A stretch of DNA of 56,956 nucleotides from Bacteroidota bacterium (GTDB lineage: Bacteria > Bacteroidota > Bacteroidia > UKL13-3): NCBI GenBank assembly GCA_947464275.1, contig CANHVU010000023.1, positions 1-56,956 of the forward strand, in the 5' to 3' direction. Below are positions 31,954 through 54,614 of the stretch, one piece after another (position 1 is the stretch's first letter; every line of letters starts with the position of its first letter). Made by a program: the position numbers and the translations under genes. The notes under the pieces are model-generated. The model did not search any database. It had not been told where the DNA came from and worked only from the letters and a program-made list of their open reading frames with translations.

Positions 31954-33372
31954 ATGAGTAATTATTTAAGAAGCGATTTAAACGATACCATTTGTGCATT
32001 GGCAACTCCCGAAGGTATTGGTGCTATTGGTGTTATCAGAATAAGTGGTAGTAATGCCATTGAGTTGGTTAATCAAGTTTTTAAAGGTAAAAACTTAACA
32101 CAACAAGCATCGCATACTGCTCATTTTGGTAGAATTATAGAAAACAGTAATCCCGAAAACATAAAGGTAATTGATGAGGTATTGGCTACTATTTTTGTAG
32201 CGCCAAAATCGTACACAGGCGAAAATACGGTAGAAATTAGCTGCCATGGTTCAGCTTATATTCAACAACAAATACTACAAACACTTATCAAACAAGGTGC
32301 TCGTTCGGCTAAACCTGGCGAGTTTACCATGCGTGCATTTTTAAATAAAAAATTGGATTTAACGCAAGCCGAAGCAGTAGCCGATTTAATTGCGAGTAAT
32401 AGCGAAGCAAGCCACCAAACAGCCATGACCCAAATGCGAGGTGGATTTTCGAGCCAAATTTTAGATTTAAGAGAACGTTTGGTAAATTTTGCTTCGTTAA
32501 TTGAGTTAGAATTAGATTTTGGCGAAGAAGATGTGGAGTTTGCTAGTAGGCCACAATTAAAAGATTTGGTTCAAAATATTTTAAACTTGGTGCAATCGCT
32601 ATTGCAATCGTTTAAGTATGGCAATGCCATTAAAAATGGAATTCCTACGGTAATAGTAGGTAAACCAAATGCTGGAAAATCTACATTGCTGAATGCCTTG
32701 ATAAATGATGAAAGAGCCATTGTAAGTTCCATAGCCGGCACTACCCGCGATACCATTGAAGAAACTTTTATTATTGATGGTATATTATTTAGATTGATTG
32801 ATACCGCAGGTATTAGAAAAAACACCAACGATGCCATAGAAACCATTGGTATAGAACGTACTTTTGAAAGTATAAACAAAGCTAGTATTGTCATTTATTT
32901 ATTTGATGCCAGCACCACCACTAGTGCTGAGTTAGAAACTGAATTAAACGCTTTGGTAAAAAACCAAGCAGTAATTATTCCGGTAGCTAATAAAATAGAT
33001 TTACTAAACGAAGCCAATAAAACTCAAATTATAGATTCGTTTAACAATATAAACAGCATTTACAAACCGCTTTATGTAAGCACCTTACAAAAGGAAAATT
33101 TAGCTCAATTAAACCAAAAGCTAATTGATATAGTGCGAGGTGATGAAGTAAAAAATGATGTAATTATCACCAATATGCGCCATTACGAAGCTTTGTTAAA
33201 TACATCGAATGCACTGCAAGATGTTTTAACGGGAATGGATTTGCAACAAACTGGCGATTTATTAGCGTTTGATATTAGAAAAGCAATTTTCCATTTAGGC
33301 GAAATAGTAGGCGATATAACAACAGACGATTTACTAGAAAATATTTTCAGTAAGTTCTGTATCGGAAAATAA
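31954..33372 (+). CDS. mnmE: tRNA uridine-5-carboxymethylaminomethyl(34) synthesis GTPase MnmE
   Basis: 472 residues from the ATG at 31954 (MSNYLRSDLNDTICALATP); an in-frame TTG three codons earlier is unlikely because it overlaps the -7 box. The N-terminal formyl-tetrahydrofolate-binding domain is followed by helices and an inserted G domain with GKPNAGKSTLLNAL (G1), DTAG (G3) and NKID (G4), and the protein ends in the invariant FCIGK. With MnmG it modifies U34 in the wobble position of tRNAs that read two-codon boxes. A strong terminator follows and the accessory island begins right after it. Confidence 0.97.
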   Translation: MSNYLRSDLNDTICALATPEGIGAIGVIRISGSNAIELVNQVFKGKNLTQQASHTAHFGRIIENSNPENIKVIDEVLATIFVAPKSYTGENTVEISCHGSAYIQQQILQTLIKQGARSAKPGEFTMRAFLNKKLDLTQAEAVADLIASNSEASHQTAMTQMRGGFSSQILDLRERLVNFASLIELELDFGEEDVEFASRPQLKDLVQNILNLVQSLLQSFKYGNAIKNGIPTVIVGKPNAGKSTLLNALINDERAIVSSIAGTTRDTIEETFIIDGILFRLIDTAGIRKNTNDAIETIGIERTFESINKASIVIYLFDASTTTSAELETELNALVKNQAVIIPVANKIDLLNEANKTQIIDSFNNINSIYKPLYVSTLQKENLAQLNQKLIDIVRGDEVKNDVIITNMRHYEALLNTSNALQDVLTGMDLQQTGDLLAFDIRKAIFHLGEIVGDITTDDLLENIFSKFCIGK

Positions 33373-33607: not shown

Positions 33608-34165
33608 ATGAGTTCAAATATTAAGATACAAAAAATCTGTATGCTTTGTGGGATTGAGTTTACAGCAAAAACAACTGTTACTCAATATTGCAGCAGTAAT
33701 TGTGGCAAGCGTGCTTACAAATTACGAAATAGAACAGCAAAAATTGAAGCAACGAACAATGAAACAAAAGCTATAAAAGCCAAACCAATTGAACTACTAA
33801 AAGAAAGGGAATTTTTAACAGTTACACAGGTTTCAAAATTAATTGGCTGCTCTCGCCAAAACATTTACAAAATGATAAATTCAGGTAAACTCAAAGCAAC
33901 TAACATACTAGAAAAGAAAACCATTATTAAACGTTCAGATATTGATATGCTTTTTGAACCACATGAGCCAACTATTATTCAAACAATTACTGAGACTATT
34001 CAAATTAATATTTCGGATTGTTACACATTAACTGATGTCCAAAATAAATTTGGAGTTTCTGAAAAGGCATTGCTTCAAATCATAACAAGAAACAATATAC
34101 CAAAAATAAAAAATGGATGGTATTCATACGTTCCTAAAACATTAATTGATAAACTATTTAATTAA
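33608..34165 (+). CDS. Zinc-finger plus HTH (excisionase-like) DNA-binding protein
   Basis: 185 residues from the ATG at 33608; an earlier in-frame TTG-type start at 33557 lies in promoter-like sequence. Residues 8-32 contain CMLCGIEF...YCSSNCGKRAY, a short zinc-binding finger, and residues 64-110 form a MerR/Xis-type helix-turn-helix (FLTVTQVSKLIGCSRQNIYK, then GKLKA). A second HTH-like segment lies near the C-terminus. In Bacteroidota mobile elements a protein of this kind commonly precedes the integrase and probably controls excision direction. It ends 19 bp before the integrase start, implying co-transcription. Confidence 0.75.
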   Translation: MSSNIKIQKICMLCGIEFTAKTTVTQYCSSNCGKRAYKLRNRTAKIEATNNETKAIKAKPIELLKEREFLTVTQVSKLIGCSRQNIYKMINSGKLKATNILEKKTIIKRSDIDMLFEPHEPTIIQTITETIQINISDCYTLTDVQNKFGVSEKALLQIITRNNIPKIKNGWYSYVPKTLIDKLFN

Positions 34166-34184
34166 ACACCAAAGCATAAAAACA

Positions 34185-35348
34185 ATGGCTATAAAAGTAA
34201 AGTTAAGAAAAAAGGCAATTTCAGGGAACAGGCAAAGCCTGTATTTAGATTTTTACCCAGCTATTCCGCACCCCGAAACAAGCAAACCCACACGAAGGGA
34301 ATTTATAGGGTTATATCTTTTTGATAAGGCGAAGAGTCCACTTGATAAGCAGCATAACAAAGATACTTTACAGATTGCAGAACAGATAAGGCAGAAAAGG
34401 GAAAACCATTTTAACAAGCCTGAAATTTACACTGGGTATGAAAAGGAACAACTAAAGATTAAGGAAAGGGGCGAACATAATTTTGTTGCCTATTTCAAAA
34501 GCCTTGTTGACAAACGCAAAGCTAGCAACCACGATAACTGGGTTTCGGCTTACAAATACCTCAATATTTTTACTGGGGGTAATAATGATAATAACACAAT
34601 TGGGAATCTGAAGTTTGCCGACCTCAACGAAAAGTTTTGTAATGATTTCAAAGATTATTTGCTCAATATAAAAAGCAATAAGAGAAGCAAAACAACCCTT
34701 GCCCAAAATTCAGCCGTTTCCTATTTCAATAAGCTAAAGGCAACTTTAAAGCAAGCCTATAAAGACGGGCATTTAAACACCGACCTGAATGCGAAAATTG
34801 CATGTATTGAAACACAGGAAACAATAAAACAAACCCTAACCATTGAGGAACTGAACAAACTTGCAAAAGCTGAATGTAATTACCCATTACTGAAAAATTA
34901 TGTTTTGTTTTCAGCCCTTACAGGTATGGCGCATAAGGAAATGCAAAACCTTAACTGGGGTCAAGTTGAGGTGTCGGAATCGTTCGGAATAAGGATTAAA
35001 ATGATAAGACAGAAAACGGACAAACCTTACAATATCAATATTTCTGAACAGGCTTACAGCTTAATGGGTGAACGTAAAGAACCAGCCGACAAAGTATTTG
35101 AGGGTATAAACAACCGTGATAGATTTATTTTTTTCCCTTTATGGCTTGCTGAAGTTGGAATAAAAAAGCATATGACCTTTCACGATTTAAGACATACGTA
35201 CGGCTGTTTGCAAATTGATTTGGGAACAGATATTTACACCTTACAAGGCAATATGGGACACGCAACCCCTCGACAAAGTATGATGTATGGAAAAATAAGC
35301 GACCAAAGAAAACGAGCAGCAGCTGACAAAATACAATTAGATTTTTAA
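34185..35348 (+). CDS. Tyrosine recombinase / integrase (IntDOT-like)
   Basis: 387 residues from the ATG at 34185. An N-terminal arm-binding region, a SAM-like core-binding domain (about 95-190, FVAYFKSLVDKRKASNHDNW) and a catalytic domain are present. Catalytic residues seen are HDLRHTY (His and Arg II), GHAT (His) and MMYGKI (nucleophile Tyr), plus a lysine in RQKTDK. The box-I position normally carrying Arg reads TGMAHKEMQNL, so Arg I is missing; loss of Arg I is known from IntDOT of the conjugative transposon CTnDOT. It should integrate and excise the surrounding element. The attachment site was not identified. Confidence 0.9.
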   Translation: MAIKVKLRKKAISGNRQSLYLDFYPAIPHPETSKPTRREFIGLYLFDKAKSPLDKQHNKDTLQIAEQIRQKRENHFNKPEIYTGYEKEQLKIKERGEHNFVAYFKSLVDKRKASNHDNWVSAYKYLNIFTGGNNDNNTIGNLKFADLNEKFCNDFKDYLLNIKSNKRSKTTLAQNSAVSYFNKLKATLKQAYKDGHLNTDLNAKIACIETQETIKQTLTIEELNKLAKAECNYPLLKNYVLFSALTGMAHKEMQNLNWGQVEVSESFGIRIKMIRQKTDKPYNINISEQAYSLMGERKEPADKVFEGINNRDRFIFFPLWLAEVGIKKHMTFHDLRHTYGCLQIDLGTDIYTLQGNMGHATPRQSMMYGKISDQRKRAAADKIQLDF

Positions 35349-39331: not shown

Positions 39332-41800
39332 TTATGCAACTCTTTCTTCGTATAAATACTTTTGGAACTCAATAAACAACTTGCTTATATCTCCAACGTT
39401 ACCAAGAACCTCTTTAGCATCCTCTAACGATTGATATTTGTTGGTAAGGAGTATTGGTAGTTTTTCTTGGTCAAGTTCTTCTACGCCTGTTTCAACATAT
39501 TTGCTTAGTACAAATTCTATAAACTCTTTTTGTTTGTTATCCAGCAATGCAAAAATGGTAGCTTGTGAAGCTGCTACTCGCTGTTCTCTGGTTAATGAGT
39601 TGTAGTTTCCATTAAACACATATTCCAACACATCAAATAAATCGCTCTTTTCCATATTAACCAATGATTGAACTATCAACAAATCACTTTTAGGAAAACC
39701 AACTTCTTCTAATTTTTCTAATAATACTTTTCTCGTCATTGGGTTGCTCCAAAGTGTTCTTAGTTCTTCTTCGCTTTTAAATAAATTTGGCAATGCTCCA
39801 AATAGGTTATTTAAAAATTCCTCGGCTGAAATAGGCTTACCTTCAGCACTCCAAAACGAAGTGGCAATCATTGATTGTATTTCTCGCTCTTTGCCATCAC
39901 GCAATTTTATCTTAATCTTTTGCCTTTTATTGCAACTACAATTAAATTCACCACAAATCTCACAAGGTTCTTTAGGCGCTTTTTCACACACACAAGGAGT
40001 TTGACCACAAACTTTGCAAGGTTGCCCTGGTGTTCTTGGTTCGCCTTCTGTATCTGGCTCTAATGGTTCGCCATCCCACTCTGGGTCTGCAAAATGATGG
40101 TAGGCATCTACATAATCGTAAATAGTAAAAAACTCTTTACCATCAAATAACCTTGTTCCTCTACCTACAATTTGCTTAAACTCTATCATAGAATTGACTG
40201 GGCGCATCAAAACAATGTTCCTAATGTTCCTTGCATCAACTCCAGTAGATAATTTTTGCGAAGTGGTTAAAATGGTTGGTATTGTTTTTTCGTTGTCTTG
40301 AAATGTCTTTAAAAAGGTTTCTCCAATATCACCATCATTGGCAGTAACTCGCACACAATAATCCGGATTGGTACTTTTTTTATATTGGTTTACCAAATCT
40401 CGAACAGCAGCAGCGTGGTCTTGCGTGGCACAAAAAATAATGGCTTTTTCTTTTTGATTGGCTTCGTCCATATAAATTTGAACTCGTTTTGCCTCTCTTG
40501 CCTTTATTTCAATAATGCGGTTAAAATCACTTTCTTTATAAGTTTTACCTTCCTCTATTTCTCCTTCTATTATTTGGTCATCGCTAGTATAAATATAATC
40601 ATCCAACGTAGTCTTAATACGTTTTACTTTAAATGGTGTTAAAAAACCATCGTTTATACCTTCTTTCAATGAATATACATAAACAGGCTCCCCAAAGTAT
40701 TTGTAAGTATCTACATTGTCTTTGCGCTTAGGTGTTGCAGTTAAACCTAATTGAACAGCTGGAGAAAAATATTCTAAAATTCCTCTCCAATTTCCTTCAT
40801 CATTTGCTCCACCTCGGTGGCACTCGTCTATGATAATGAAATCAAAATAGTCTTTTGGGTATTGTCCAAAATTATAATCCTTTGTTTGATTATCAATATC
40901 TGGTTCTGCCGCTATAGCAAGGGGCGGTTCTTCGGCACTAATAGGTTTTACTACTTTTGTGCTTACACTCATAAAGCTTTGAAATATGGTAAAGAAAATA
41001 CTTCCGTTAGTTGGTACGTTTCCTTTTTTCTTTATTTCGCTTGGCTTAATTCGCACCAAAGCATCTTCAGGGAAAGCAGAGAATGAGTTGAAGGCTTGGT
41101 CGGCTAATATATTTCTATCTGCTAAAAATAAAATACGAGGTCTGCGACTACCATCACGTTTTAAATTCCAACGTGTTTGAAATAACTTCCAAGCAATTTG
41201 AAAGGCAATAGCCGTTTTTCCTGTTCCTGTAGCAAGGGTTAATAAAATACGTTCTTTGCCATTGGCTATGGCTTCAATGGTATTACGAACTGCTATTTCT
41301 TGATAATAGCGCAATTGCCAAGTACCACTTTTATCTTCAAATGGAACATCGGCAAATTTTAAACGCCATTCGTTTATTGGGTTGGAAACAGTAACTGCTT
41401 GTGTGTTGTTTCCTGTATAGGTTTTATTCCAAAGTTCTTCAGGGGTAAGGTAATTTTCTACCAATCCTTCGGCACCTGTTTTCATACAAATACTATAAAT
41501 TTCTTTTCCGTTGGTAGAGTACGTAGTTTCTAATTTAAGTTTATCGGCATATTGTTTGGCTTGTGCCACACCTTCGCCCACACCTAAATCATCGCTTTTG
41601 GCTTCTACTACAGCTAGTTTAATGCCTTTGTAAACCAATACATAATCAGCAATTATTTTTTTAGACCTAACACCGCCAGTTTGTATTTTACCAGCGGTAA
41701 TATTGTATTCACGAAGGATTTTTGAACCTTCAATAACGCCCCAACCACAAGCCTTTAGTTTGGGGTCTATGAGTTCTGCTCTTGTTTCAGCTTCGTTCAT
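39332..41800 (-). CDS. hsdR: Type I restriction enzyme, R subunit (EcoEI-like)
   Basis: 822 residues. The N-terminal nuclease domain shows a PD-(D/E)xK pattern (D52, E66, K68 in VVEAKSDD). The SF2 translocase follows, with LATGTGKTAIAFQIAWKLF (Walker A), IIIDECHRGG (DEAH-type box) and LGLTATPKRKDN. A cysteine cluster with four CxC/CxxC-type pairs (about residues 592-622) probably binds zinc, and the C-terminus resembles the EcoEI R C-terminal domain that contacts the methylase. With HsdM and HsdS it cleaves unmodified DNA away from the recognition site after ATP-driven translocation. It is the last gene of the minus-strand operon, 133 bp from the small wHTH gene. Confidence 0.95.
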   Translation of the reverse strand: MNEAETRAELIDPKLKACGWGVIEGSKILREYNITAGKIQTGGVRSKKIIADYVLVYKGIKLAVVEAKSDDLGVGEGVAQAKQYADKLKLETTYSTNGKEIYSICMKTGAEGLVENYLTPEELWNKTYTGNNTQAVTVSNPINEWRLKFADVPFEDKSGTWQLRYYQEIAVRNTIEAIANGKERILLTLATGTGKTAIAFQIAWKLFQTRWNLKRDGSRRPRILFLADRNILADQAFNSFSAFPEDALVRIKPSEIKKKGNVPTNGSIFFTIFQSFMSVSTKVVKPISAEEPPLAIAAEPDIDNQTKDYNFGQYPKDYFDFIIIDECHRGGANDEGNWRGILEYFSPAVQLGLTATPKRKDNVDTYKYFGEPVYVYSLKEGINDGFLTPFKVKRIKTTLDDYIYTSDDQIIEGEIEEGKTYKESDFNRIIEIKAREAKRVQIYMDEANQKEKAIIFCATQDHAAAVRDLVNQYKKSTNPDYCVRVTANDGDIGETFLKTFQDNEKTIPTILTTSQKLSTGVDARNIRNIVLMRPVNSMIEFKQIVGRGTRLFDGKEFFTIYDYVDAYHHFADPEWDGEPLEPDTEGEPRTPGQPCKVCGQTPCVCEKAPKEPCEICGEFNCSCNKRQKIKIKLRDGKEREIQSMIATSFWSAEGKPISAEEFLNNLFGALPNLFKSEEELRTLWSNPMTRKVLLEKLEEVGFPKSDLLIVQSLVNMEKSDLFDVLEYVFNGNYNSLTREQRVAASQATIFALLDNKQKEFIEFVLSKYVETGVEELDQEKLPILLTNKYQSLEDAKEVLGNVGDISKLFIEFQKYLYEERVA

Positions 41801-42635: not shown

Positions 42636-43754
42636 TTACCTATCTTTTAATCTGTTAAAAACATCCTTATTATCTTCAAGTCGCTTTTCTAAGTCCATAC
42701 TTCTATCGCCCAAAAACTTTTCATAATCTTCTGAACTTACTTCATTTACATATTCTTTCAATTTCTCATGCAAAGCATCTCTAAAAGCCAAATCACGGCT
42801 AGCCATTAAACTTCTTGCTTTTTCACGTAACGGAACTAAAGTTGCCTCAGTAATTTGCTCGTAGGTTGCAAACAATGAATGAGCTTCTGAAAGACTCAAT
42901 TTTCGTCCAAGTTTTTCAGATTCAATTCTCAAATAATTAGCATATCCATTCTCGTATCCAGCTATTAAGTCCAATACTTCTGAATACATTGTGCTACGCA
43001 CACTTTCCTTGGTGTTGAGTTTTAAAATTTGTCGGTATTCTTTTGCGTCTTCCTTAAAAATACTTTTGTAAATCTTATCTGTTAATTGCCCATATTTGAA
43101 TTTATTCTTAACAATGTAATAATCTAACGCATTGGTAAATTCCTGTCTATAGTTAAATTCTCGTATAGCGCTAGGTAAAAATTCTTCTTCTCGTTGATTG
43201 ATGTATTTTGTTTTACCTCCTAACTTTTTGTTGAGCACATCAATTACAATGTCTAAAATTGCAGAGCGCAGTTTTTGCGCTTTTTCAGAGCCAGTTAGCA
43301 GCATGCCTACATTAAGAAAAGCTTTGTATGTAAATGTTCCAAGTATGGATGTTTTGCCCAAGCTATCTATTTCGTTTTCATATAATTGAATGATGGTGGC
43401 GACAATTATGTCGTTACCATCATTGATGTCTCCGATATGAATGTCGGAGACATCAATCTTTTCTTTTGCAATTTTCAGATAATCAGATATTTCATCTTTG
43501 AATTGACGAAGTTTACTACCGACCAAAACCTCATAACCACTTTGTTCTAATTCTGTTTTATGGTTTTCGAGAATACGGTCAATCGTTCTACTGTCAACCT
43601 CAAAATAGTTGGCAACCTGCTGCTTAGTAAATCGGTATTTACCTTCGAACTTAATTCCATAAAAACCTACTTGCTCATACAGCTCTTGTATGGCAAAATT
43701 ATTATTTAAAATATTTTTCCGATCGAGACTCGAATTTGTTAAATCTTTGCTCAT
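42636..43754 (-). CDS. HTH DNA-binding protein, likely antitoxin/partner of Doc
   Basis: 372 residues. Residues 35-80 form a helix-turn-helix-like domain (KYRFTKQQVANYFEVDSRTI, then ILENHKTELEQSGYEV); the central region is helical, with no enzymatic motif, and the C-terminus is charged coil. Proteins of this type are often annotated as RhuM-like or simply DNA-binding and are found beside Fic/Doc genes. Because it lies directly upstream of and nearly overlaps the Doc gene, an antitoxin or repressor role is likely but unproven. Its ATG overlaps the TGA of an hsdS tail remnant, as if the pair had been moved in together with part of another RM operon. Confidence 0.6.
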   Translation of the reverse strand: MSKDLTNSSLDRKNILNNNFAIQELYEQVGFYGIKFEGKYRFTKQQVANYFEVDSRTIDRILENHKTELEQSGYEVLVGSKLRQFKDEISDYLKIAKEKIDVSDIHIGDINDGNDIIVATIIQLYENEIDSLGKTSILGTFTYKAFLNVGMLLTGSEKAQKLRSAILDIVIDVLNKKLGGKTKYINQREEEFLPSAIREFNYRQEFTNALDYYIVKNKFKYGQLTDKIYKSIFKEDAKEYRQILKLNTKESVRSTMYSEVLDLIAGYENGYANYLRIESEKLGRKLSLSEAHSLFATYEQITEATLVPLREKARSLMASRDLAFRDALHEKLKEYVNEVSSEDYEKFLGDRSMDLEKRLEDNKDVFNRLKDR

Positions 43755-44239: not shown

Positions 44240-45427
44240 TTAAATAACAGCATTTAAATTCAACTCCCCACTAAATGCCTTTTGCAAAATACTTTTTTTC
44301 AACTCTTCTAAATCATTTATTTTTTGCAGATAAATGGCTTCTAATTTCTTTGTTTCGGCTGATAACGCATCAAGTTTTTGAACGATTTTGTTTTGTTCTT
44401 TTAATGGCGGAATATTAATTTTAAAATCCAAAACAGCATTCATATTTGCTCTCGGCAAAGTTGCGCCAGTCCATGTTGCATTTATTTTTTTCATTGTTTC
44501 AGCAGCGATTAACCATCTAAATAAAAATCCTCTATCCAAAACACTCTTCTTTGGTTTTATAGGAAAAATTTCGGTTGAACAATGTCCTTCAAAATCTGGT
44601 AACAAAACTTTGTTTAGATAAGGACGTAGCCTTCCGTATAGTACATGGTCATTATTGAAATAAAAAGTTAAACTCTTCATACTTCTTGGTTCAAATGGTC
44701 CAATAAAAATCCCAGTGTTAGATTGAATATCTTCAAGCCCAACATAAGGCAAGTCATCTCTTTTATTTGAATTTTTATCATACTCACAGACCTCCCCCAA
44801 TGTTTTCTCTTCCCAACCATCAACTTTATTTTCAAAAACTCCTTGCAAATAACTTTCAAAAAGTTCTTTGGCGTTTTTGAGGTTTTGTTCGGCATTGGTT
44901 TTTGCCTTGGCTATGGTAGCAAAGGCTTCATCTAATATGGCTACGATGCGTTGTTGCTCTGGAAGGGGTGGTAGTGGGATTTCAATATCTTTCGCCCTGC
45001 TTATTGTTAAAGTACCAACCGTAGCACCCATTGAACCATCCATAACTTGAGCCAATATAGAGTCTGCTTTAAAGGCATATTCAATATATCGGGAATTAAC
45101 CTTACCTGAGTTTTCAAACCATAAAACAGATGCATCTTTGAAATAGAATTTATCAGAATCTTTAACTAAATAACATTGTCCTAAAGTTCCAACGGCAGAA
45201 ACAATAATATCGCCAGTCTTTGGGGCTCCTTTTTCTTTAGTAAATTGCTCATATAACTCTTCGCTAATAAATAATTCATTTTCTACTATTCCATCTTTTG
45301 CAAGTTTAACAACTTCTCTAGCTCTATAAAATGGAATACCACTAGACTTCCAATCTGCTTGATGAACTCTACGACTTGATTTAACATCAAATAATTGAGA
45401 CAACTTTTTTATCTCCCAACCTTTCAT
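44240..45427 (-). CDS. hsdS: Type I restriction-modification specificity subunit
   Basis: 395 residues with the two-fold layout of HsdS: target-recognition domain 1 (about 1-140), a conserved coil starting IPLPPLPEQQRIVAILDEAF, domain 2 (about 205-330), and a second coil starting INIPPLKEQNKIVQKLDAL. The two domains each read one half of a bipartite sequence, which cannot be predicted here. The start ATG overlaps the hsdM stop (ATGA), coupling translation. An 89-bp direct copy of its 3' end lies 483 bp downstream, evidence of duplication or recombination at this gene. Confidence 0.95.
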   Translation of the reverse strand: MKGWEIKKLSQLFDVKSSRRVHQADWKSSGIPFYRAREVVKLAKDGIVENELFISEELYEQFTKEKGAPKTGDIIVSAVGTLGQCYLVKDSDKFYFKDASVLWFENSGKVNSRYIEYAFKADSILAQVMDGSMGATVGTLTISRAKDIEIPLPPLPEQQRIVAILDEAFATIAKAKTNAEQNLKNAKELFESYLQGVFENKVDGWEEKTLGEVCEYDKNSNKRDDLPYVGLEDIQSNTGIFIGPFEPRSMKSLTFYFNNDHVLYGRLRPYLNKVLLPDFEGHCSTEIFPIKPKKSVLDRGFLFRWLIAAETMKKINATWTGATLPRANMNAVLDFKINIPPLKEQNKIVQKLDALSAETKKLEAIYLQKINDLEELKKSILQKAFSGELNLNAVI

Positions 45428-46884
45428 ATCAGTTCTAAAATTGAGTTTAAAATATCGGCACTTTCTTCGTCCAAGGCTTTCATTTCTTCTAATATTTGTT
45501 GCGGTTGGCGCAAAGCAGCTTCTTCTTTTTTGTTAGGGTTTTTAGCGCTTAGGTCGTAAGTAGAATTGGCTTCGACAAGCTCAGCCACCGATACACTCCA
45601 AGAGTTTTCGCTATCTGCTTTTGTTTTTTGTAATGCTACAAAATCGGCTAAATCTTTTTCGTTTAGTGCATTGGTCTTACCTAAGTTTCTATCTAAGTTC
45701 AATTGGTAAAACCAAACCTTTTTGGTAGCACTTCCTTTTTCAAAAAACAATACCACTGTTTTTACTCCCGCTCCTGTAAAGGTTCCGCCTGGTAAATCTA
45801 AAACGGTATGTAGGTTACAACTTTCTAATAACTGCTTGCGCAATGCCACAGATGCGTTATCTGTATTGCTTAAAAAGGTGTTTTTAATTACCACAGCAGC
45901 TTTACCACCCGCCTTTAGTATTTTAATAAAATGTTGTAAAAATAAAGAAGCAGTTTCTCCCGTTTTAATAGGAAAGTTTTGTTGTACTTCTGCTCGTTCT
46001 TTACCACCAAACGGAGGGTTAGCCAATACAATGTCATATCGGTCTTTTTCTTGTATGTCGGCTAAGTTTTCGGCAAGTGTATTGGTATGTATAATGTTGG
46101 GTGCTTCTATGCCATGAAATATCATATTCATGGTACCAATAATATATGCCAACGATTTTTTTTCTTTACCGTAAAAGGTATGTTTTTGTAAGGTGGTTAC
46201 ATCAGTTGTGGTTAGTTTTTTACTGTTTTGTAAATAAGTAAATGCCTCGCACAAAAAACCAGCACTACCTACCGCACCATCGTATATTTTGTTGCCAATT
46301 TCGGGAGCTACTACTTTTACAATAGTAGTAATCAAGGGTCTAGGCGTGTAGTATTCGCCACCATTGCGCCCTGCATTACCCATATTCTGAATTTTAGATT
46401 CATACAAATGGCTCATTTCGTGCTTTTCGGCATGTGTTCTAAAACGCAATTCATCAATTCGGTTAATTACTTCGCGTAAGTTATAACCGCTTTGTATGCG
46501 GTTTTTTAGTTCGCTAAATATTTCCCCTATTTTATATTCAATGGTATCCGCACTCTCGGCTTCTGCCTTAAACTTTTTAAGGTAAGGGAATAACTTTATG
46601 TTTACAAAATCGGCAAGGTCATCTCCAGTTAAAGCTTTGTGGTGGTCTAGTTTTCCATCCTTGTCTTTAGGAGCAGCCCACACATGCCATTGGTATTCAT
46701 TATCAAGTAGTGGTTTATAAACTTTACCTGTTAGTTCAGCAGCGGTGGCTTTATCATTTTCTAAATCAGCTAAATATTTTAAAAACAATACCCATGATGT
46801 TTGCTCTACGTAATCTAATTCACTTCCACAACCAGCATCTTTATGCAGTATATCATCTATATTTTTAAAAGTTTGTTCAAACAT
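45424..46884 (-). CDS. hsdM: Type I restriction-modification methyltransferase subunit
   Basis: 486 residues. An N-terminal helical domain (FEQTFKNIDDILHKDAGCGS) precedes the N6-adenine methyltransferase core with GAVGSAGFLCEAF (motif I region, SAM binding) and ANPPFGGKER (catalytic motif IV). It methylates adenines in the sequence chosen by HsdS and, with HsdR, forms the restriction complex. A dispersed repeat (45564-45590) is inserted in frame near residue 435 and encodes SVAELVEAN, apparently tolerated. First gene of the RM operon; its upstream 145 bp hold no clear consensus promoter. Confidence 0.95.
   Translation of the reverse strand: MFEQTFKNIDDILHKDAGCGSELDYVEQTSWVLFLKYLADLENDKATAAELTGKVYKPLLDNEYQWHVWAAPKDKDGKLDHHKALTGDDLADFVNIKLFPYLKKFKAEAESADTIEYKIGEIFSELKNRIQSGYNLREVINRIDELRFRTHAEKHEMSHLYESKIQNMGNAGRNGGEYYTPRPLITTIVKVVAPEIGNKIYDGAVGSAGFLCEAFTYLQNSKKLTTTDVTTLQKHTFYGKEKKSLAYIIGTMNMIFHGIEAPNIIHTNTLAENLADIQEKDRYDIVLANPPFGGKERAEVQQNFPIKTGETASLFLQHFIKILKAGGKAAVVIKNTFLSNTDNASVALRKQLLESCNLHTVLDLPGGTFTGAGVKTVVLFFEKGSATKKVWFYQLNLDRNLGKTNALNEKDLADFVALQKTKADSENSWSVSVAELVEANSTYDLSAKNPNKKEEAALRQPQQILEEMKALDEESADILNSILELI
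45564..45590 (-). repeat. Dispersed repeat inserted in frame within hsdM
   Basis: On the minus strand ATCGGTGGCTGAGCTTGTC followed by GAAGCC matches the intergenic hairpin repeat at 23286 at 18 of 19 positions. It is translated as SVAELVEA in HsdM. Confidence 0.7.
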
Positions 46885-47029: not shown

Positions 47030-47617
47030 TTATTTATTTAATAAGGTTTTTAAAACTTCATTTCTGTAATTCTCTTGGCTAATGTGGTAACTATAATGCT
47101 TTACCTTTTTAATTGTGTATTTCTGACGAAAATGTTTATTTAGTATATTAAATGTTACTTTTCCAAAAGCAATAATCAATGGGTTAGCGCATCTTAAGTC
47201 TTCAATTTCCTTTTCGAATTTCTTTACGTTCTCTAATTCAAATTCTTGGTTGTTATTAAGAAACTGTAAAACATTTCCCGATGTTTTTTCTTCAAAGTCC
47301 TTTATTATATCAGTCATATATGCGCCATAAAACTCAGTATCTCGAAACGCATATCTTATTTTATAATCTTGTCCTTGAGGTCTATAGTCATGAAAGTTTA
47401 CAAATGCTTTTTTTTCAATAGTCCTTGAGAAATTTAGCCCGACCATAATTACATTTGGATTAAGGGTCTCGAGTAAATTTGGGTTCTTGTTAAAATCAAA
47501 AATACTCATGTCGCCTATGTTCGATTTTGCTTTTATATCTTCATTTGCCCAAATTGCCCAACTTGCATATTCACCGTATTTCGCCTCTATTTCTTTGTAA
47601 TGTTCTTTTGTTATCAT
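47030..47617 (-). CDS. Uracil-DNA-glycosylase-superfamily-like protein
   Basis: 195 residues from the ATG at 47617 (MITKEHYKEIEAKYGEYASW); a longer frame to 47710 lies in sequence that looks like leader. Visible blocks are VIMVGLNFSR (like the GxNP motif A of UDG-fold enzymes), NFHDYRP, GAYMTDIIKDF, LIIAFGKVTFNIL and a late HYSYH at the place of the family's HPS motif. The catalytic Asp/Asn cannot be fixed. It follows the ATPase-methyltransferase gene by 116 bp on the same strand, suggesting a two-gene unit. A base-excision or nucleotide-recognition role is inferred from fold resemblance only. Confidence 0.5.
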   Translation of the reverse strand: MITKEHYKEIEAKYGEYASWAIWANEDIKAKSNIGDMSIFDFNKNPNLLETLNPNVIMVGLNFSRTIEKKAFVNFHDYRPQGQDYKIRYAFRDTEFYGAYMTDIIKDFEEKTSGNVLQFLNNNQEFELENVKKFEKEIEDLRCANPLIIAFGKVTFNILNKHFRQKYTIKKVKHYSYHISQENYRNEVLKTLLNK

Positions 47618-47733
47618 ATCTATTTTTTTATAATGATTAATTGCTAAATGAAATTTGTGAAGTAAAATGCTAAAACTGTCTGCCTCAACTAAAATTGAAA
47701 CGAAATACAAAAGCTCATTTAAACATAAAATTG

Positions 47734-49860
47734 TTAATTTCTTTTGGATGCTATTAGCAGTTTCTTTTTTTCTTGCATTTGTTCATTTAATTTTTTTTGT
47801 GCAAATTTTGAGTTGATATGCAATTGTGAAAGAAATGCTGATAGTCGTCCTTTTTTATTACTAATAACTTCATTGTCTGTATTAATGCGAAGTTGATAAA
47901 TTTTGTCTAGGGTATTTTTTTCCACGTTTTGCATGGTCAACAAAACGTCTCCAATAGTTATATGCCTAAGGTTACTTTTAGGTATTAATATACAAGTTAT
48001 GTTCTCATTTTTGTCTTTATATTTCAGCTGAGCAGGTTTATTGTCTAAACCAAACAAAACTTTCAATTCGTTTTCATCCAATAACAAGAAACCAGTTGAA
48101 CCAATTAGCTCTCCTTTTCTGAGACTTTTGGCTTCAATAATTATTAAGTTACCATCGTCTTTTAATGAATCAATAATTCGATTAATTGCTGGAACCCATT
48201 CATTAATATCAATTTCGTGCAATACGTTACATAAGACTACAAAATCAAAGGACTTTTCTGTTAATTCAGCATAAGATCCAACAATTTTGGAAATTCCTTT
48301 TGCTTTTAAATCAATATGTAATTCAACATTAGGTTCTAATGCTGAATATTCTATAGCATTTCTAAATTTTTTATCACGATTTGCCTGCTCATAGAGGCGA
48401 CCTTTCCCTGCACCGAAATCAAGTAAAAGGGATTTTTTATTGTCTTCTTTTGCATTTATTATTTCTTTTAAAGACTGAATTTGTGGGTCATTTTCTTTCG
48501 CAACTTCAATCACATCCGGATTTGTAAAACACTCAATCATAAATTGCACATAAGTCCAATCATAAATTGAATTCAAAAATTCATTTAACTTCAAAACTCT
48601 TTCTTCAATTTTCATTAATTCCGCCAATGCCTCACGTTGAATTGTATTTGAAGGGTGCTTTATTAGTCCATCTTTAACCATGAATACTTCATCGTAGTTT
48701 AAATGAGAGAGAATATTTAAAGAGTGTGTTGCAATGTACAGTTGCCCATTATCTTCAATAATATTTTTAATTCCATTAATTAAGTCTATCTCAGCGTCTG
48801 GATGAAGATGTAACTCTGGCTCGTCAATGATTAATATACTGTCTCTAAGCCTTATGCTTTTATTTTGAGACATTAAAAAGAACATTAAAACATAAGCAAA
48901 GAGTGTTTTTTCTCCATCAGAAAATTCTGTATAATTAAATTCTCTTTTGTTTATTTTCCAAATACCTGCTTGTAAACTTTTAACACCATTATCAGTGACG
49001 CTCCTTTCTACATTTTTTATTTCCCACTCGAGTGTTTTACCAAAAATATTTTCAAAAATCTCTTTTAATGCTACAAACCTTTCATAAGATTTTCTCTTGT
49101 TGAATTTTTCAACGTCACCAAGACAATCTATCCAATCGGATACAAGCTGATGAGGCAACTTCCTTAAAAATCGTAATGAACTTTTATAAATACTTCCTAA
49201 TTCATTGTAAACTAATTGTTCAGTCACACTCTCTACTAATTGTTCAAATGAATTTACTTCCTCATCATTGTCCAAAACAACATCTTGCAATTGTCTTATT
49301 TGAGTATAGTTTACGCGTTTTACGTAATTGCTATGAAGTTCAGAAATTAATGGACGAATTTCGTCAATTATTAATTTTATGTTTTGATAAGGAGATTGTT
49401 GCTGTATTGGTAATTGCTGCCTTTGATTATTTAAACCGTTTTTGATTATAGTTAAATTATCATCTGATTGATTAATTACCTTAATGGAATGTTCCATTTG
49501 TGAAATTTCTCTTCTCAATCGTTGCCGTTTTGACCTTAATTCTGTATCTGCTGGATTAACCTTAATTAACAAATCTATCTCCTCCATCTCAATTATCATT
49601 ATTGCCAATTCCTTATTTGGTTCGAGTTTCATAATTGCTTGCCTAATCTTAATAGGTAGATTTGTAATGTTACCCTTGATAATGTTATTAAGGGTAATAA
49701 TGGATGAAATATTTGCTTCAATAAAATTTAAAATTCTTGATTTACCTGAACCATTTTTCCCAACAAGTGCAACAACTTTATCTAAGCGCGATAAGTTAAT
49801 TTCTTGAAGTCCGACTGTTGATGTTTGACTATATTCTAGTTTTACTTTGTTAATTCTCAT
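47734..49860 (-). CDS. AAA/ABC-type ATPase fused to SAM-methyltransferase-like domain
   Basis: 708 residues. An N-terminal ABC/SMC-like ATPase has Walker A GKNGSGKS (34-41), an inserted coiled coil (about 95-200), the signature FSDGEKTLFAY (about 313), Walker B ILIIDEPELHLHPD (about 340) and the H-loop YIATHS. Residues about 470-610 form a class-I methyltransferase-like fold: LLLDFGAGKGRL (motif I), YSALEPN (acidic strand 2), and FDFVVLCNVLHEIDINEW. A short helical C-terminus follows. ATPases of this kind (OLD, AbiEii-partner and related groups) are common in phage defence; fusion to a methyltransferase-like domain is unusual to me. It lies beside the RM operon and a glycosylase-like gene. 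Confidence 0.8.
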   Translation of the reverse strand: MRINKVKLEYSQTSTVGLQEINLSRLDKVVALVGKNGSGKSRILNFIEANISSIITLNNIIKGNITNLPIKIRQAIMKLEPNKELAIMIIEMEEIDLLIKVNPADTELRSKRQRLRREISQMEHSIKVINQSDDNLTIIKNGLNNQRQQLPIQQQSPYQNIKLIIDEIRPLISELHSNYVKRVNYTQIRQLQDVVLDNDEEVNSFEQLVESVTEQLVYNELGSIYKSSLRFLRKLPHQLVSDWIDCLGDVEKFNKRKSYERFVALKEIFENIFGKTLEWEIKNVERSVTDNGVKSLQAGIWKINKREFNYTEFSDGEKTLFAYVLMFFLMSQNKSIRLRDSILIIDEPELHLHPDAEIDLINGIKNIIEDNGQLYIATHSLNILSHLNYDEVFMVKDGLIKHPSNTIQREALAELMKIEERVLKLNEFLNSIYDWTYVQFMIECFTNPDVIEVAKENDPQIQSLKEIINAKEDNKKSLLLDFGAGKGRLYEQANRDKKFRNAIEYSALEPNVELHIDLKAKGISKIVGSYAELTEKSFDFVVLCNVLHEIDINEWVPAINRIIDSLKDDGNLIIIEAKSLRKGELIGSTGFLLLDENELKVLFGLDNKPAQLKYKDKNENITCILIPKSNLRHITIGDVLLTMQNVEKNTLDKIYQLRINTDNEVISNKKGRLSAFLSQLHINSKFAQKKLNEQMQEKKKLLIASKRN

Positions 49861-50605: not shown

Positions 50606-51670
50606 ATGCCACATAAATACGATTTAACAATTTTAAATTGCGCACACTCTATTTATAATTTATTTGAAGCTGAAATTGATATCCTCAAGCCTAATTCATA
50701 TAAACTTAAACAAAGACTACGTGAATATGTTAACGGAAACCTATATCCAACTAAAAAAATTGAAATAACATCATTTAGTTATTATTCAAAACTTCAAAAT
50801 TATTACCAGCTAAAGTTAAATGGAGTTGATTTTGAAAATTTAAATTTAAAATCAAAATTCTCCTATGCCGAAATTGAAAAAATTGAAGAATTAATATTGA
50901 ATAGTGGTTTAGGCGCAGATAATATTACTCTCGAAGAGCTTTTTAAACAATTATTTGACCATTATTTTTTAGCCTTCATCACTGTAATTATTAAAAATGA
51001 AATTGAAAACCCTATTTATGATAAAAACAGAATACTACTATTAGAGTTCCAGAAAAAGATTAACAGTATAAATGAAATTGCTTTTATAGAAAATACAGAA
51101 CTATATTTTACTTTTTTAATTCTTTTGATGTCTGATTATGGTGTGTTATATATTGAAGATATACTGAATCATCATTTGAATAAAACTGCTAACAAAAATG
51201 ATTTTGTAAAAAGTTTAACAAAACACATAATACTTATACCAGAACCATTACAAGATGATAAAATTTTGAATCAAATAAATTTATGGGTAAAATCTAATCA
51301 AGATAGCGATGGTACAGTAAAACCCAAAAGCGAATTGCTAACCTTTGAAAACAACTTTGATAATATTAAACCAACTGATATTTACAAACACTTTAAAGCT
51401 GGTTTAGTTGAGAAAAAATATTTAACCGAACAGCAATTGAATATGTATTTGAAAGCCGCATTTGAATTGAAAACAATACCTGAAACACTTTTTAAAATCA
51501 AAGATGCTCCTAACAAGGCAACTATTGAAGCCGTATTTTACACATACTATAAAAATGTGGCTGGTAAAATTCACGGCAGGCAAAACCAATATGCAGCACT
51601 GTTAGGTGATTATTTTGAGGGTTACAAAACCTCCACAGTAAGCACTAATTTTAGCAAGTCAGTTTACTAA
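50606..51670 (+). CDS. Conserved mobile-element protein of unknown function
   Basis: 354 residues, soluble and mostly helical. The C-terminal quarter (DIYKHFKAGLVEKKYLTEQQ, then LNMYLKAAFEL...TIEAVFYTYYKNVAGKIHGR) resembles, from memory, a domain in proteins that precede excisionase/RepA genes in Bacteroidota elements; similarity to the RteC regulator is possible but not convincing. No catalytic motif is seen. It is the first gene of the plus-strand replication module and its stop codon lies inside the first unit of the ACTAA repeat array. A regulatory role is a guess. Confidence 0.6.
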   Translation: MPHKYDLTILNCAHSIYNLFEAEIDILKPNSYKLKQRLREYVNGNLYPTKKIEITSFSYYSKLQNYYQLKLNGVDFENLNLKSKFSYAEIEKIEELILNSGLGADNITLEELFKQLFDHYFLAFITVIIKNEIENPIYDKNRILLLEFQKKINSINEIAFIENTELYFTFLILLMSDYGVLYIEDILNHHLNKTANKNDFVKSLTKHIILIPEPLQDDKILNQINLWVKSNQDSDGTVKPKSELLTFENNFDNIKPTDIYKHFKAGLVEKKYLTEQQLNMYLKAAFELKTIPETLFKIKDAPNKATIEAVFYTYYKNVAGKIHGRQNQYAALLGDYFEGYKTSTVSTNFSKSVY

Positions 51671-51785: not shown

Positions 51786-52139
51786 ATGGAAAATTTAAAA
51801 GAGGGTTTAACCCTAGAAACATTACCTAAAGCCTTTACGCTCCTTTCAAATGAAGTAAGCGAAATAAAAAGGCTATTACTTGAAAGGAGTAACGAACAAC
51901 CAACCGAAACCGACCGTTGGTTTGACCTCAACGAACTTTGCCAGTACCACCCCGACAAGCCCAGCAAACCTACAGTTTACGGCTGGGTAAACGCTGGTAC
52001 TATTCCTGTACACAAAGGTTGTAAAAAGTTGAGGTTTCTAAAATCGGAAATTGATAACTGGTTAAGGCAAGGCAGAAAAAAGACGTTGTCAGAAACAGCC
52101 AGCGAAGCAGAAAAGTATTGTAAAACTAAAAAGTGGTAA
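51786..52139 (+). CDS. Excisionase-like helix-turn-helix protein
   Basis: 117 residues. After a short coil (LLSNEVSEIKRLLLE) residues 45-95 form a MerR/Xis-type HTH: WFDLNELCQYHPDKPSKPTV followed by YGWVNAGTIPVHKGCKKLRF and LKSEIDNWL. Such proteins occur just upstream of RepA-like ATPases in Bacteroidota mobilizable elements and may control excision or replication. The RepA-like gene starts 3 bp after its stop. The phased TTACTAA array immediately upstream is a candidate binding site. Confidence 0.8.
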   Translation: MENLKEGLTLETLPKAFTLLSNEVSEIKRLLLERSNEQPTETDRWFDLNELCQYHPDKPSKPTVYGWVNAGTIPVHKGCKKLRFLKSEIDNWLRQGRKKTLSETASEAEKYCKTKKW

Positions 52140-52142
52140 GCT

Positions 52143-53273
52143 ATGCAGGAACATAACAACACCCCTAATAAGTTAAGCACTAAAGATGAGAATAAAGATA
52201 CAAATTTAAACACCATTACACCAACGTATGAGTTTGATAAATACGGTATCGGGGTTGAGGATATTAAAACCGAAGCCAAACAACTGTTAAAGATAGGCAA
52301 TGAAGCCAAAGAAAGTAAAGGACTGTTCACAGTAAAAACAGCCAGCCGTTGGATAGAACAAGCTAAAACTCGACCTACTCCCCAAATGCTTTTTGGCGAA
52401 CTTTGGTTTGAGGGTGAATTATGTATTTTGTTTGCCGACACCAATTTAGGTAAGTCAATTTTAGCCGTGCAAATTGGTAACAGCATAAGCAAAGGCGAAC
52501 AAATACATGGCTTTAAATTGGAAACTCCAAAGCAACCGATTTTGTATTTTGATTTTGAGTTAAGCGACAAACAATTTGAAAATAGATATTCAATAAATTT
52601 TGATCAACATTACCACTTTGATGAAAACTTTATAAGAGTTGAAATAAACCCAGATGCTGAAATACCCGAAGCCCAAACCTTTGAGGATTTCTTAAATCAT
52701 TCATTGGAACTAAGTATTATTGAAACTGGGGCAAAGGTTTTAATCATTGACAACCTTACTTATCTCAAAAATGAAACTGAAAAGGCTAAAGATGCTTTGC
52801 CATTAATGAAACATTTGAAAGCCTTAAAAAACAAATACGGACTTTCTATTCTAGCACTTGCACACACACCAAAAAGGGATTTATCAAAACCTATCACCCG
52901 AAATGATTTATCGGGAAGCAAAGCTTTAATGAATTTTTGTGATAGTTCCTTTTCAATCGGTGAAAGCCACAGCGACAAAAATTTAAGATATATCAAACAA
53001 ATAAAAGAGCGATTTACTGAAAAAATTTACGATGCTGAAAATGTTTGTGTTTGTCAAATTGATAAGCCCCATAATTTCCTATTGTTTGAGTTTGTCAATT
53101 TTGGAAAGGAATTTGAACACCTTAAACAGCACACTGAAAGGGATAAAGAAGACCTAAACGAAAAGGTACGAGAACTAAAACAGCAAGGGCGAAGCCTACG
53201 TGAAATAGGGGCTGAACTTGGAATTTCTCATATGAAAGTAAGTAGAATTTTAAAGGACTGTAACACCCTGTAA
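52143..53273 (+). CDS. RepA-like RecA-fold ATPase / replicative helicase
   Basis: 376 residues. A RecA-fold ATPase of the AAA_25/RepA type: Walker A in LFADTNLGKSILAVQIGN (about 95-112), an acidic DFELSD stretch, and Walker B VLIIDNLTYL near residue 200, then LALAHTPKR. The last 45 residues are a separate HTH (KVRELKQQGRSLREIGAELG, HMKVSRIL). RepA of plasmid RSF1010 is a hexameric helicase for origin opening; an analogous role is likely. The C-terminal HTH may direct it to specific DNA. The final codons overlap the CTGTTAC iteron array. Confidence 0.85.
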   Translation: MQEHNNTPNKLSTKDENKDTNLNTITPTYEFDKYGIGVEDIKTEAKQLLKIGNEAKESKGLFTVKTASRWIEQAKTRPTPQMLFGELWFEGELCILFADTNLGKSILAVQIGNSISKGEQIHGFKLETPKQPILYFDFELSDKQFENRYSINFDQHYHFDENFIRVEINPDAEIPEAQTFEDFLNHSLELSIIETGAKVLIIDNLTYLKNETEKAKDALPLMKHLKALKNKYGLSILALAHTPKRDLSKPITRNDLSGSKALMNFCDSSFSIGESHSDKNLRYIKQIKERFTEKIYDAENVCVCQIDKPHNFLLFEFVNFGKEFEHLKQHTERDKEDLNEKVRELKQQGRSLREIGAELGISHMKVSRILKDCNTL

Positions 53274-53311
53274 CCACTGTAATAGCCTGTTACGGTTGTT
53301 ACACCTGTTAC
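53258..53311. repeat. Six phased CTGTAAC/CTGTTAC iterons between repA and primase
   Basis: Cores at 53258, 53268, 53277, 53287, 53296 and 53305 are spaced 10, 9, 10, 9 and 9 bp. The first two read CTGTAAC, the third CTGTAAT, the fourth and sixth CTGTTAC, the fifth TTGTTAC. The two end words are mutual complements. The array covers the last five codons and stop of the RepA-like gene and ends 16 bp before the next ATG. It is a candidate replication origin or autoregulatory site. Confidence 0.75.
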
Positions 53312-53327
53312 AGAATAAATAATAAAA

Positions 53328-54614
53328 ATGAATAATTACAGATACACTTTAGAACCATACAAGGGAATGAATACCCGTTACCGTTGCGAACATTGTCAAC
53401 ATAAGGATAAAAAGTTTTCGCGTTACATTGATATAGAAACAGGCAAACACTTACACCCCACCGTTGGCAGATGCGAAAGGTCAGACAGTTGTGGCATTCA
53501 TTACACCCCGAAACAATATTTTCAGGATAACAATATTTCATTTGATAAACACCTGCCTAAGCCCTACAAGCCCCGACCTGTTTCACATCAACTAAAGCCA
53601 GTTTCATTTATTCCAGTGAAGGTATTCAAAGCAAGCCTGAACCCTACAGCGTTTGAAACGAACCACTTTGTAAAGTTCCTTATTAATTTGTTCGGGGTTG
53701 AGGTTGCCAACCAACTGGTAAGCCGTTATTTTATTGCCACTTCAAAACATTGGAACGGTGCAACTGTATTTTGGCAAATAGATACACAGGGCAAAGTAAG
53801 AACTGGTAAAATAATGCTTTACAACCACACCACAGGCAAAAGAGTAAAGAACCTTGAATTGCCAGTTTATTGGGTGCATAAAGCCCTTAAACAGGCTGAA
53901 TTTGGGTTAAAGCAATGTTTGTTTGGTGAACACTTATTAATTGATAAAACTAAACCTGTTGCCATAGTTGAAAGCGAAAAAACGGCTGTAATTGCAAGCG
54001 TTTATTTACCCCAATTTATTTGGGTTGCAGTTGGCAGCCTTACCAATCTGAACGCTGAAAAATGCAGCATACTAAAGGGGCGAACTGTTACATTATTTCC
54101 AGACCTTAACGGATTTGATAAATGGAACAGTAAAGCAAAGGAACTTGGACACATTACAAATTTTATAGTTTCAGACTTATTGGAGAGCAAAGCCACCGAT
54201 TTAGAAAAGCAGCAAGGTTTTGATTTAGCTGATTACTTAATAAAATTTGATTTGGCCAACTTTTTTAAAAATGAAACTGAACCAGTAGCAAGTGAACCAA
54301 TAGTAATTGAAACAATAGCTGTTCAACTAAAAGCAATTGATACACCGCCACCATTTAAGGAAACAGCCAAAACAGATTGGAGCAATGAAATAATTGAACT
54401 AGAAGCATATTTTAAAAATTCAAAATTACCAACCGAACCAATAAAAATAAACCAATGCCAAACGATAACCAATGTGCATAAATTCATTGATAGACATTTA
54501 AATACACTCAAAACCAATAATGGCAAACCAACATTTGAACCTTATTTAAACCGATTACAACAACTAAAAGAACTAATAAACATTTGGCAGCCTTGCGCTT
54601 TTGCAGGCTACTGA
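53328..54614 (+). CDS. Toprim/DUF6371-like primase protein
   Basis: 428 residues. The N-terminus has a zinc-binding region (YRCEHCQHKDKKF, then GRCERSDSCGIHYTP). The middle domain (FWQIDTQGKVRTGKIMLYN) and a Toprim-like domain (PVAIVESEKTAVIASVYLP...WVAVGSLTNLN...TVTLFPDLNGFDKW) with the expected Glu and Asp follow, as in the primases of Bacteroidota mobile elements. It would prime replication started by the RepA-like protein encoded 54 bp upstream. The C-terminal 100 residues look like a flexible addition. No relaxase follows, so the element, if mobilizable, lacks that gene in this window. Confidence 0.8.
   Translation: MNNYRYTLEPYKGMNTRYRCEHCQHKDKKFSRYIDIETGKHLHPTVGRCERSDSCGIHYTPKQYFQDNNISFDKHLPKPYKPRPVSHQLKPVSFIPVKVFKASLNPTAFETNHFVKFLINLFGVEVANQLVSRYFIATSKHWNGATVFWQIDTQGKVRTGKIMLYNHTTGKRVKNLELPVYWVHKALKQAEFGLKQCLFGEHLLIDKTKPVAIVESEKTAVIASVYLPQFIWVAVGSLTNLNAEKCSILKGRTVTLFPDLNGFDKWNSKAKELGHITNFIVSDLLESKATDLEKQQGFDLADYLIKFDLANFFKNETEPVASEPIVIETIAVQLKAIDTPPPFKETAKTDWSNEIIELEAYFKNSKLPTEPIKINQCQTITNVHKFIDRHLNTLKTNNGKPTFEPYLNRLQQLKELINIWQPCAFAGY

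Follow-up and report, generated by a model that had tools for sequence, protein, structure and literature searches.

In the 56,956-nucleotide stretch analysed here (the window; contig CANHVU010000023.1 of a Bacteroidota bacterium), one gene, P0001, encodes a protein that joins a PtuA-like ATPase domain to a class I S-adenosylmethionine (SAM)-dependent methyltransferase domain. We propose, with a probability of roughly 0.5, that this fusion gene is a single-gene accessory anti-phage system, in which a sensor ATPase of the PtuA type switches on a methyltransferase effector. P0001 is probably the core of the system and the whole of it. Its open reading frame (ORF) is uninterrupted, and its parts are arranged as follows, with conservation given for an alignment of 44 family members.

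47734..49860, minus strand: ATPase-methyltransferase fusion gene P0001, 708 residues (ORF, Pfam, at least 46 further non-redundant loci).
48601..49860, minus strand: ATPase domain, residues 1-420, PtuA-like ATP-binding cassette (ABC)/OLD-type with a helical insert (Pfam AAA_21; fold of PtuA 8ee4_D).
49738..49761, minus strand: Walker A GKNGSGKS, residues 34-41 (K40 in 44/44).
48907..48921, minus strand: ABC signature SDGEK, residues 314-318 (S314 and G316 in 44/44).
48799..48837, minus strand: Walker B ILIIDEPELHLHP, residues 342-354 (D346 in 44/44, E347 in 43/44).
48724..48726, minus strand: H379 after the last ATPase strand, in IATHS (44/44), which we take to be a switch-type histidine with the role it has in ABC ATPases.
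47965..48564, minus strand: class I SAM methyltransferase domain, residues ~433-632 (Pfam; fold of the CurJ C-methyltransferase 5thy_B).
48397..48429, minus strand: methyltransferase motif I LLLDFGAGKGR, residues 478-488 (G485 and R488 in 44/44; D481 and G483 in 42).
48211..48234, minus strand: motif IV LCNVLHEI, residues 543-550 (V546, H548 and E549 in 44/44).
48133..48135, minus strand: E576, at the end of the strand following motif IV (44/44).
47737..47964, minus strand: C-terminal helical tail, residues 633-708 (N683 in 44/44).

Pfam places AAA_21 (E 9.7e-18) together with AAA_15 over residues 25-384, and Methyltransf_23, _11 and _12 (E 1e-6 to 2e-5) over residues 469-576. The protein contains GKNGSGKS, FSDGEKT, DEPELHLHPD, LLLDFGAGKGRL and VLCNVLHEI. 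Read from the sequence, this motif set is far beyond chance, since the key residues are conserved in relatives. Pfam, fold and motif I agree in assigning the C-terminal half to the class I SAM methyltransferases, among which it is of the small-molecule type. Pfam finds no target-recognition domain in P0001, no TOPRIM domain in P0001 or the five further members scanned, and no nuclease family in the ATPase half across six members scanned. The DNA-methyltransferase motif [SDN]PP[FYW] does not occur in P0001, and LCNVLHEI occupies the motif IV position after strand 4.

The fusion architecture is present at at least 47 non-redundant loci, comprising the window, 6 genomes, 37 GTDB contig loci and 3 viral contigs. 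When patterns derived from the methyltransferase half were run against GTDB contigs, at least 53 loci came up; 40 of these are fusions (L035-L074), 3 of them already known. Loci L075-L087 were dropped because the match is confined to the methyltransferase half (the loci inspected being L075-L077). A first GTDB contig scan with a single protein and a first viral scan with a two-row alignment yielded no relative. The 44-row alignment omits L049 and L066, which are cut by contig ends and retain the end of the ATPase (the Walker B part) with the methyltransferase, and L073, which has an extension resembling tetratricopeptide repeats (TPR). In this last member (L073:7317-9785, a Defluviitaleaceae bin), a long C-terminal run of TPR-like repeats, recognised by eye, is perhaps a sensor extension. 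The residues invariant in all 44 aligned members are K40, S314, G316, D346, H379, G485, R488, H548, E549 and W555, as well as G570, E576, G583, E584, G590 and N683; the presumed catalytic-centre residues of both halves are thus kept over great distances.

The nearest relative, in a genome of the same genus (G006), shares 67% identity with P0001. Protein searches found the fusion in 2/10 genomes of the window's genus. At class level 9/395 genomes matched (6 with fusions, 3 in the ATPase range only), at phylum level 2/395, and in one other genus 1/23. Members are labelled Bacteroidota, Pseudomonadota, Campylobacterota, Myxococcota, Planctomycetota, Verrucomicrobia, Fibrobacter and a Defluviitaleaceae (Firmicutes), which, going by record labels, amounts to some seven or eight bacterial phyla; many of the members are metagenome bins, and these labels may be wrong. 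A quick tree separates a group of 15 (9 Bacteroidota and 6 without a named group, including the window) from 29 mixed rows.

A structure predicted from the 44 family members has a mean pLDDT (predicted local distance difference test) of 87 and a pTM (predicted template modelling score) of 0.59; the latter value leaves it uncertain how the two halves are positioned relative to each other. Fold alignments, scored by Z, were run against the 1000 PDB chains ranked highest by Foldseek. Among those chains the modelled ATPase half is closest to PtuA, including PtuA of retrons Ec78/Ec83 (8ee4_D, Z 16.1, root-mean-square deviation (rmsd) 4.9, 272 aligned; 9nnb_D, Z 15.9; 9e90_A, Z 15.8). On this model, the ATPase half is a PtuA-like ABC ATPase of the kind found in Septu and type I-A retrons. 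The methyltransferase half is closest to the CurJ C-methyltransferase (5thy_B, Z 15.9, rmsd 3.5, 184 aligned) and is also near PsoF, DszA and many small-molecule class I enzymes (Z 14 to 16); the fold names no substrate, since rows within Z 1 are tied.

The sequence profile of the C-terminal half, built from 43 rows (the 44 minus the G421 member), was also compared with the PDB. Its top matches are unnamed SAM-dependent methyltransferases, followed by AprA MT2, CurJ, DisA and PsoF, and a histidine and a next-strand glutamate face H548 and E576 in all five profile alignments printed. The C-methyltransferases of polyketide synthases (PKS), to which CurJ, AprA MT2, PsoF and DisA belong, have the same fold as the methyltransferase half, and in AprA MT2 the motif IV VLH and the next-strand glutamate align with those of the fusion. 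They sit in PKS, however, whereas the P0001 domain lies outside any PKS and is fused to an ATPase. PKS C-methyltransferases use a His-Glu dyad, described as H304-E308 in AmxMT1 (PMC9821293). The glutamate of AmxMT1 lies four residues past the histidine, where the fusion has I552. A catalytic mechanism shared with these enzymes is a lead only, because the glutamate candidates of the fusion lie at other spacings.

Profile searches of defence collections agree with the fold. In PADLOC the ATPase of P0001 best matches AriA (E 4e-20) and PtuA (E 1e-19), with GajA and Old weaker. For PADLOC and NCBIfam the best 25 matches per protein were considered (of 70 and 50, respectively, for P0001). The best 25 PADLOC matches fall within the first ~455 residues and leave the methyltransferase domain uncovered, and no match among the best 25 of either collection spans both halves. 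Matches to the methyltransferase half are weak only, namely mad2 of PADLOC (E 5e-05) and CpaM of NCBIfam (E 7.8e-05, 22 bits where the cut-off is 180). A sequence-only reading of the window had described P0001 as a fusion of an SMC/OLD-like ATPase to a methyltransferase-like domain, placed it in a candidate defence system and knew of no described system of this exact composition. The fusion, a defence-type ATPase and the lack of a named counterpart are supported. A single ORF carries the AAA_21/AAA_15 and Methyltransf families with conserved motifs, its ATPase is PtuA/AriA-like by PADLOC and by fold, and no named system of this architecture appears in the PADLOC and NCBIfam matches shown. Nor was a fusion of this type found described in the literature searched, the 2020 ABC-ATPase classification being outside its scope.

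The fusion shares with Septu and the PtuAB of type I-A retrons a PtuA-fold ATPase in which Walker A, signature and Walker B are kept. It differs in having a SAM methyltransferase in the effector place, and the HNH nuclease PtuB was not found among the window genes scanned. The flanks covered in the window were a small gene without a family match, HsdM and a 354-residue gene without a Pfam match; at the other fusion loci PtuB was examined through neighbour recurrence only, and an all-against-all comparison of 405 neighbour ORFs gave no family at more than 2 of the 47 loci. With respect to type I-A retrons, positions 33300-56956 contain no Rfam match at gathering scores, Rfam lacking some retron RNAs, and no reverse transcriptase was found among the 10 genes scanned of the element that carries P0001. 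PARIS and OLD/Gabija GajA resemble the fusion in the ATPase, as the AriA, GajA and Old profiles indicate. The C-terminal TOPRIM of OLD and GajA is replaced by a methyltransferase in the fusion. No AriB-type TOPRIM as in PARIS was found in P0001, and there is no such Pfam match in the flanking genes of the window. Fusion of an ATPase to its effector has been described elsewhere, for OLD and single-gene AriAB (PMC10568477). The ptuXYZ loci, described as a DUF262 nuclease, a PtuA-like ATPase and a PIN-BECR protein (PMC11980606), likewise pair a PtuA-like ATPase with an effector other than PtuB. Unlike the fusion, they consist of three separate genes with RNase/nuclease-type effectors, and the word methyltransferase is absent from the main text of PMC11980606.

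Based on these likenesses, the following mechanism can be proposed. The PtuA-like ABC ATPase would probably oligomerise like PtuA and sense an infection signal, and ATP binding or hydrolysis would license the fused class I methyltransferase, which would fill the place held by the HNH nuclease PtuB or the OLD TOPRIM nuclease in related systems. SAM-dependent modification of a host or phage target, which might be a small molecule, a lipid, a tRNA or a protein and, by the usual motif, not DNA bases, would then halt growth or phage production. Sensing, switching, toxicity and defence are here steps that we infer, not observations. In Septu, defence is reported to be lost when either Walker A/B of PtuA or the HNH of PtuB is mutated (PMC13096335), so the ATPase is needed there jointly with a separate effector. 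The PtuAB of retron-Eco7 is described as toxic, depleting tRNA-Tyr (PMC11555353). By analogy with Septu and retron-Eco7, the ATPase would gate the methyltransferase in the fusion. The fusion appears more likely to methylate a metabolite, a lipid, a tRNA or a protein than to mark DNA as in restriction-modification (R-M), because P0001 has no DNA-base motif and no Pfam target-recognition domain and its methyltransferase resembles small-molecule enzymes.

The methyltransferase might instead be protective or regulatory, either marking self (nucleic acid or the fusion protein itself) while the ATPase does the damage, or silencing the ATPase in the manner of an antitoxin. Methylation does protect self in R-M and BREX (bacteriophage exclusion), and both halves of P0001 keep invariant residues. 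The missing [SDN]PP[FYW], with LCNVLHEI as motif IV, and the lack of a Pfam target-recognition domain and of a nuclease family in the ATPase half of the six members scanned speak against such an arrangement, which we consider improbable.

The proposal of a methyltransferase effector in an anti-phage system also draws on the genomic setting. Together with a type I R-M system, the fusion is variable cargo of an integrase-bearing element that lies downstream of a mnmE-like gene (31945-33372). The order in the element is integrase, then HsdR-like, Fic, HsdS, HsdM, small gene, fusion, HTH_17, AAA_25 and DUF6371, with the following features.

34146..35348, plus strand: tyrosine integrase, close to where the element has its left end (Pfam Phage_integrase E 2.7e-11, Phage_int_SAM_5).
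39332..41800, minus strand: type I R-M HsdR-like (Pfam ResIII, EcoEI_R_C, HSDR_N).
44240..45427, minus strand: type I R-M HsdS (Pfam Methylase_S E 1.5e-34).
45424..46884, minus strand: type I R-M HsdM (Pfam N6_Mtase E 5e-61).
51786..54614, plus strand: HTH_17, AAA_25 and DUF6371 genes (Pfam), for which we infer excisionase/replication-type roles in the element.

Pfam names neither the 354-residue neighbour of the fusion (50606-51667) nor a 372-residue gene (42636-43754). The location next to type I R-M and near abortive infection (Abi) genes had been put forward as support for defence. The type I R-M genes are indeed adjacent, in an integrase-bearing element; the Abi part was not borne out, as Pfam found no Abi family among the 10 element genes scanned, which include a Fic gene. 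Two relatives (G003 and G004) have mnmE-like proteins that are 99% identical and lack the fusion (protein search; DNA search 0/2); the protein search with the fusion gave full-length matches in the window's own genome and in G006, not in these two. In G003 an aminotransferase-like gene (by eye) comes after the mnmE-like gene, which has no integrase gene next to it. In G004 the mnmE-like gene is followed by a related element, the DNA being 87% identical over 2.4 kb into the integrase gene, after which other genes follow. It is this absence of the fusion, with different content after the mnmE-like gene, that identifies the fusion as variable cargo; the 3' end of the mnmE-like gene serves as an integration site with variable occupancy. 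The search for attachment (att) sites gave the left copy only, plus weak, chance-like matches, and the right end of the element was not found.

A role in anti-phage defence is probable overall, in view of the kind of ATPase, the patchy spread of the family and the carriage of the window copy in an element alongside R-M. Defence-type genes lie within two genes of the fusion at at least 8/47 loci, the neighbours having been picked by eye, so that the figure of 8 sets a minimum and gives no rate. They are the type I R-M genes in the window, SIR2 at L031 and L071, a DNA methyltransferase with PDDEXK_4 at L037, TIR at L051, HsdS with PDC-S49 at L056, a DUF2326 ABC-3C-type gene at L061, and HsdS with Gabija GajA and GajB at L065; likewise picked neighbours at L036 and L048 gave no match. 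At L065 (L065:126-6259), from a rumen bin, the fusion has a type I HsdS-like gene on one side and gajA-gajB on the other, and gajA starts 2 bases after the fusion. It should be mentioned that at L031 a 268-residue gene between SIR2 and the fusion (L031:10647-11450) has a CxxC...HN pattern, HNH-like by eye, with no Pfam match at 0.01. Single neighbours in the family match the PADLOC candidates PDC-S13 (E 4e-133) and PDC-S02 (E 6e-131).

Several results weigh against the proposed defence system. The human SMC3 head aligns with the ATPase half at Z 14.1, and because of it the likeness to PtuA is the best yet not exclusive. PADLOC matches are not significantly enriched among neighbours relative to random ORFs of the carrier genomes (11/150 against 4/111, p 0.28), in a rough test in which the protein counts of 11 and 4 are hand estimates. 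The neighbour set comprises 150 of 166 ORFs (15 longer than 750 residues and one doubtful ORF left out) and the control set 111 of 127 (16 longer than 750 residues left out); the PADLOC profile families number 275 from neighbours and 21 from controls, and these families are redundant. Many fusion loci lie, by eye, among housekeeping-type genes. Unlike many mobile defence genes, the fusion gave no match in plasmid records (72,556; searched with three members at E limits of 1e-10 and 1e-8) or in phage records (50,697; searched with one member at 1e-5). The methyltransferase could also serve a non-toxic purpose.

Such results are in keeping with a non-defence accessory function, in which a horizontally spreading, ATP-regulated methyltransferase would modify a metabolite, a lipid or RNA under stress. 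The likeness of the methyltransferase half to small-molecule enzymes, the housekeeping-type surroundings without a recurring partner and the non-significant enrichment all fit it. We nevertheless regard this function as unlikely in view of an ATPase of the PtuA/AriA type, known from defence, and of a patchy distribution with the window copy being integrase-element cargo beside R-M. At one locus (L039) the fusion seemingly lies inside a cell-wall/division cluster, between murG-like and murC-like genes (by eye).

The family is apparently widespread and undescribed, and what would be new is the effector domain joined to an ATPase of the defence type. The PtuA/OLD/AriA-type ATPases whose effectors are known to us control nucleases. 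We suggest tentatively that P0001 and its relatives might be the first defence family to combine, in one polypeptide, a PtuA/OLD-type sensor ATPase and a toxic or antiviral SAM methyltransferase gated by it, with a target other than DNA by the usual motif. If so, bacterial immunity would gain a new effector chemistry, and control of a methyltransferase by such a relative would point to the ATPase as a general switch. With one gene involved, this proposal is easy to test.

The gene downstream of the fusion had been read as its partner, encoding a protein with a fold like that of uracil-DNA glycosylase (UDG). It is listed at 47030-47710 from a TTG, giving 226 residues; judged by its relatives, the start is the ATG at 47617, which gives 195 residues and a gap of 116 base pairs (bp) to the fusion on the same strand.

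47030..47617, minus strand: small downstream gene, 195 residues, possibly UDG-like, judged to be outside the system.

Neither Pfam nor PADLOC nor NCBIfam gave a match for the small gene at E up to 1, and comparison of its sequence profile with the PDB gave no UDG match. Its structure model has a pLDDT of 51; of the 50 Foldseek rows listed for it, 34 belong to enzymes of the UDG superfamily, at E values no better than 0.24. The protein may thus be UDG-like; its position after the fusion on the same strand is as described earlier, and the fold is weakly supported. In the two-gene defence system envisaged, the UDG-like protein would excise modified bases beside the action of the ATPase-methyltransferase. 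The closeness of the two genes in the same element, with nothing between them, and the possible UDG fold, weak as it is, are in its favour. The recurrence of the pair argues otherwise. In an adjacency test set beforehand, the small gene lies beside the fusion at 1/47 loci, that of the window (ORFs within 9 kb on either side, or as far as the contig or locus reaches where it is shorter). Elsewhere the small gene has relatives at 7 loci (4 plasmids, 2 phage contigs and 1 genome), where they adjoin other genes, and the fusion is nearby at 0/7, with flanks short in some. Moreover, in the 67% relative in G006 a different, unrelated gene of 150 residues, found at G006 only, starts 2 bp after the fusion stop. 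A two-gene system is therefore very unlikely. The small gene is not a conserved partner and its adjacency is most likely coincidence. The system is probably a single gene, because the small gene is unconserved as a partner, no neighbour family recurs and the 67% relative has a different downstream gene. This negative result matters as well, since the claim no longer includes the UDG-like gene.

The 150-residue gene of G006 (L029:9870-10319) has a GID...ELQIK stretch that is PD-(D/E)XK nuclease-like by eye, with no Pfam match at 0.01, and upstream of the fusion there are partly masked low-complexity repeat arrays (L029:6335-7520). On one of the phage contigs (L115:4001-5830), a 418-residue gene that is nuclease-like by eye begins 3 bp after a relative of the small gene, and this pair is flanked by duplicated small lipoprotein-like genes.

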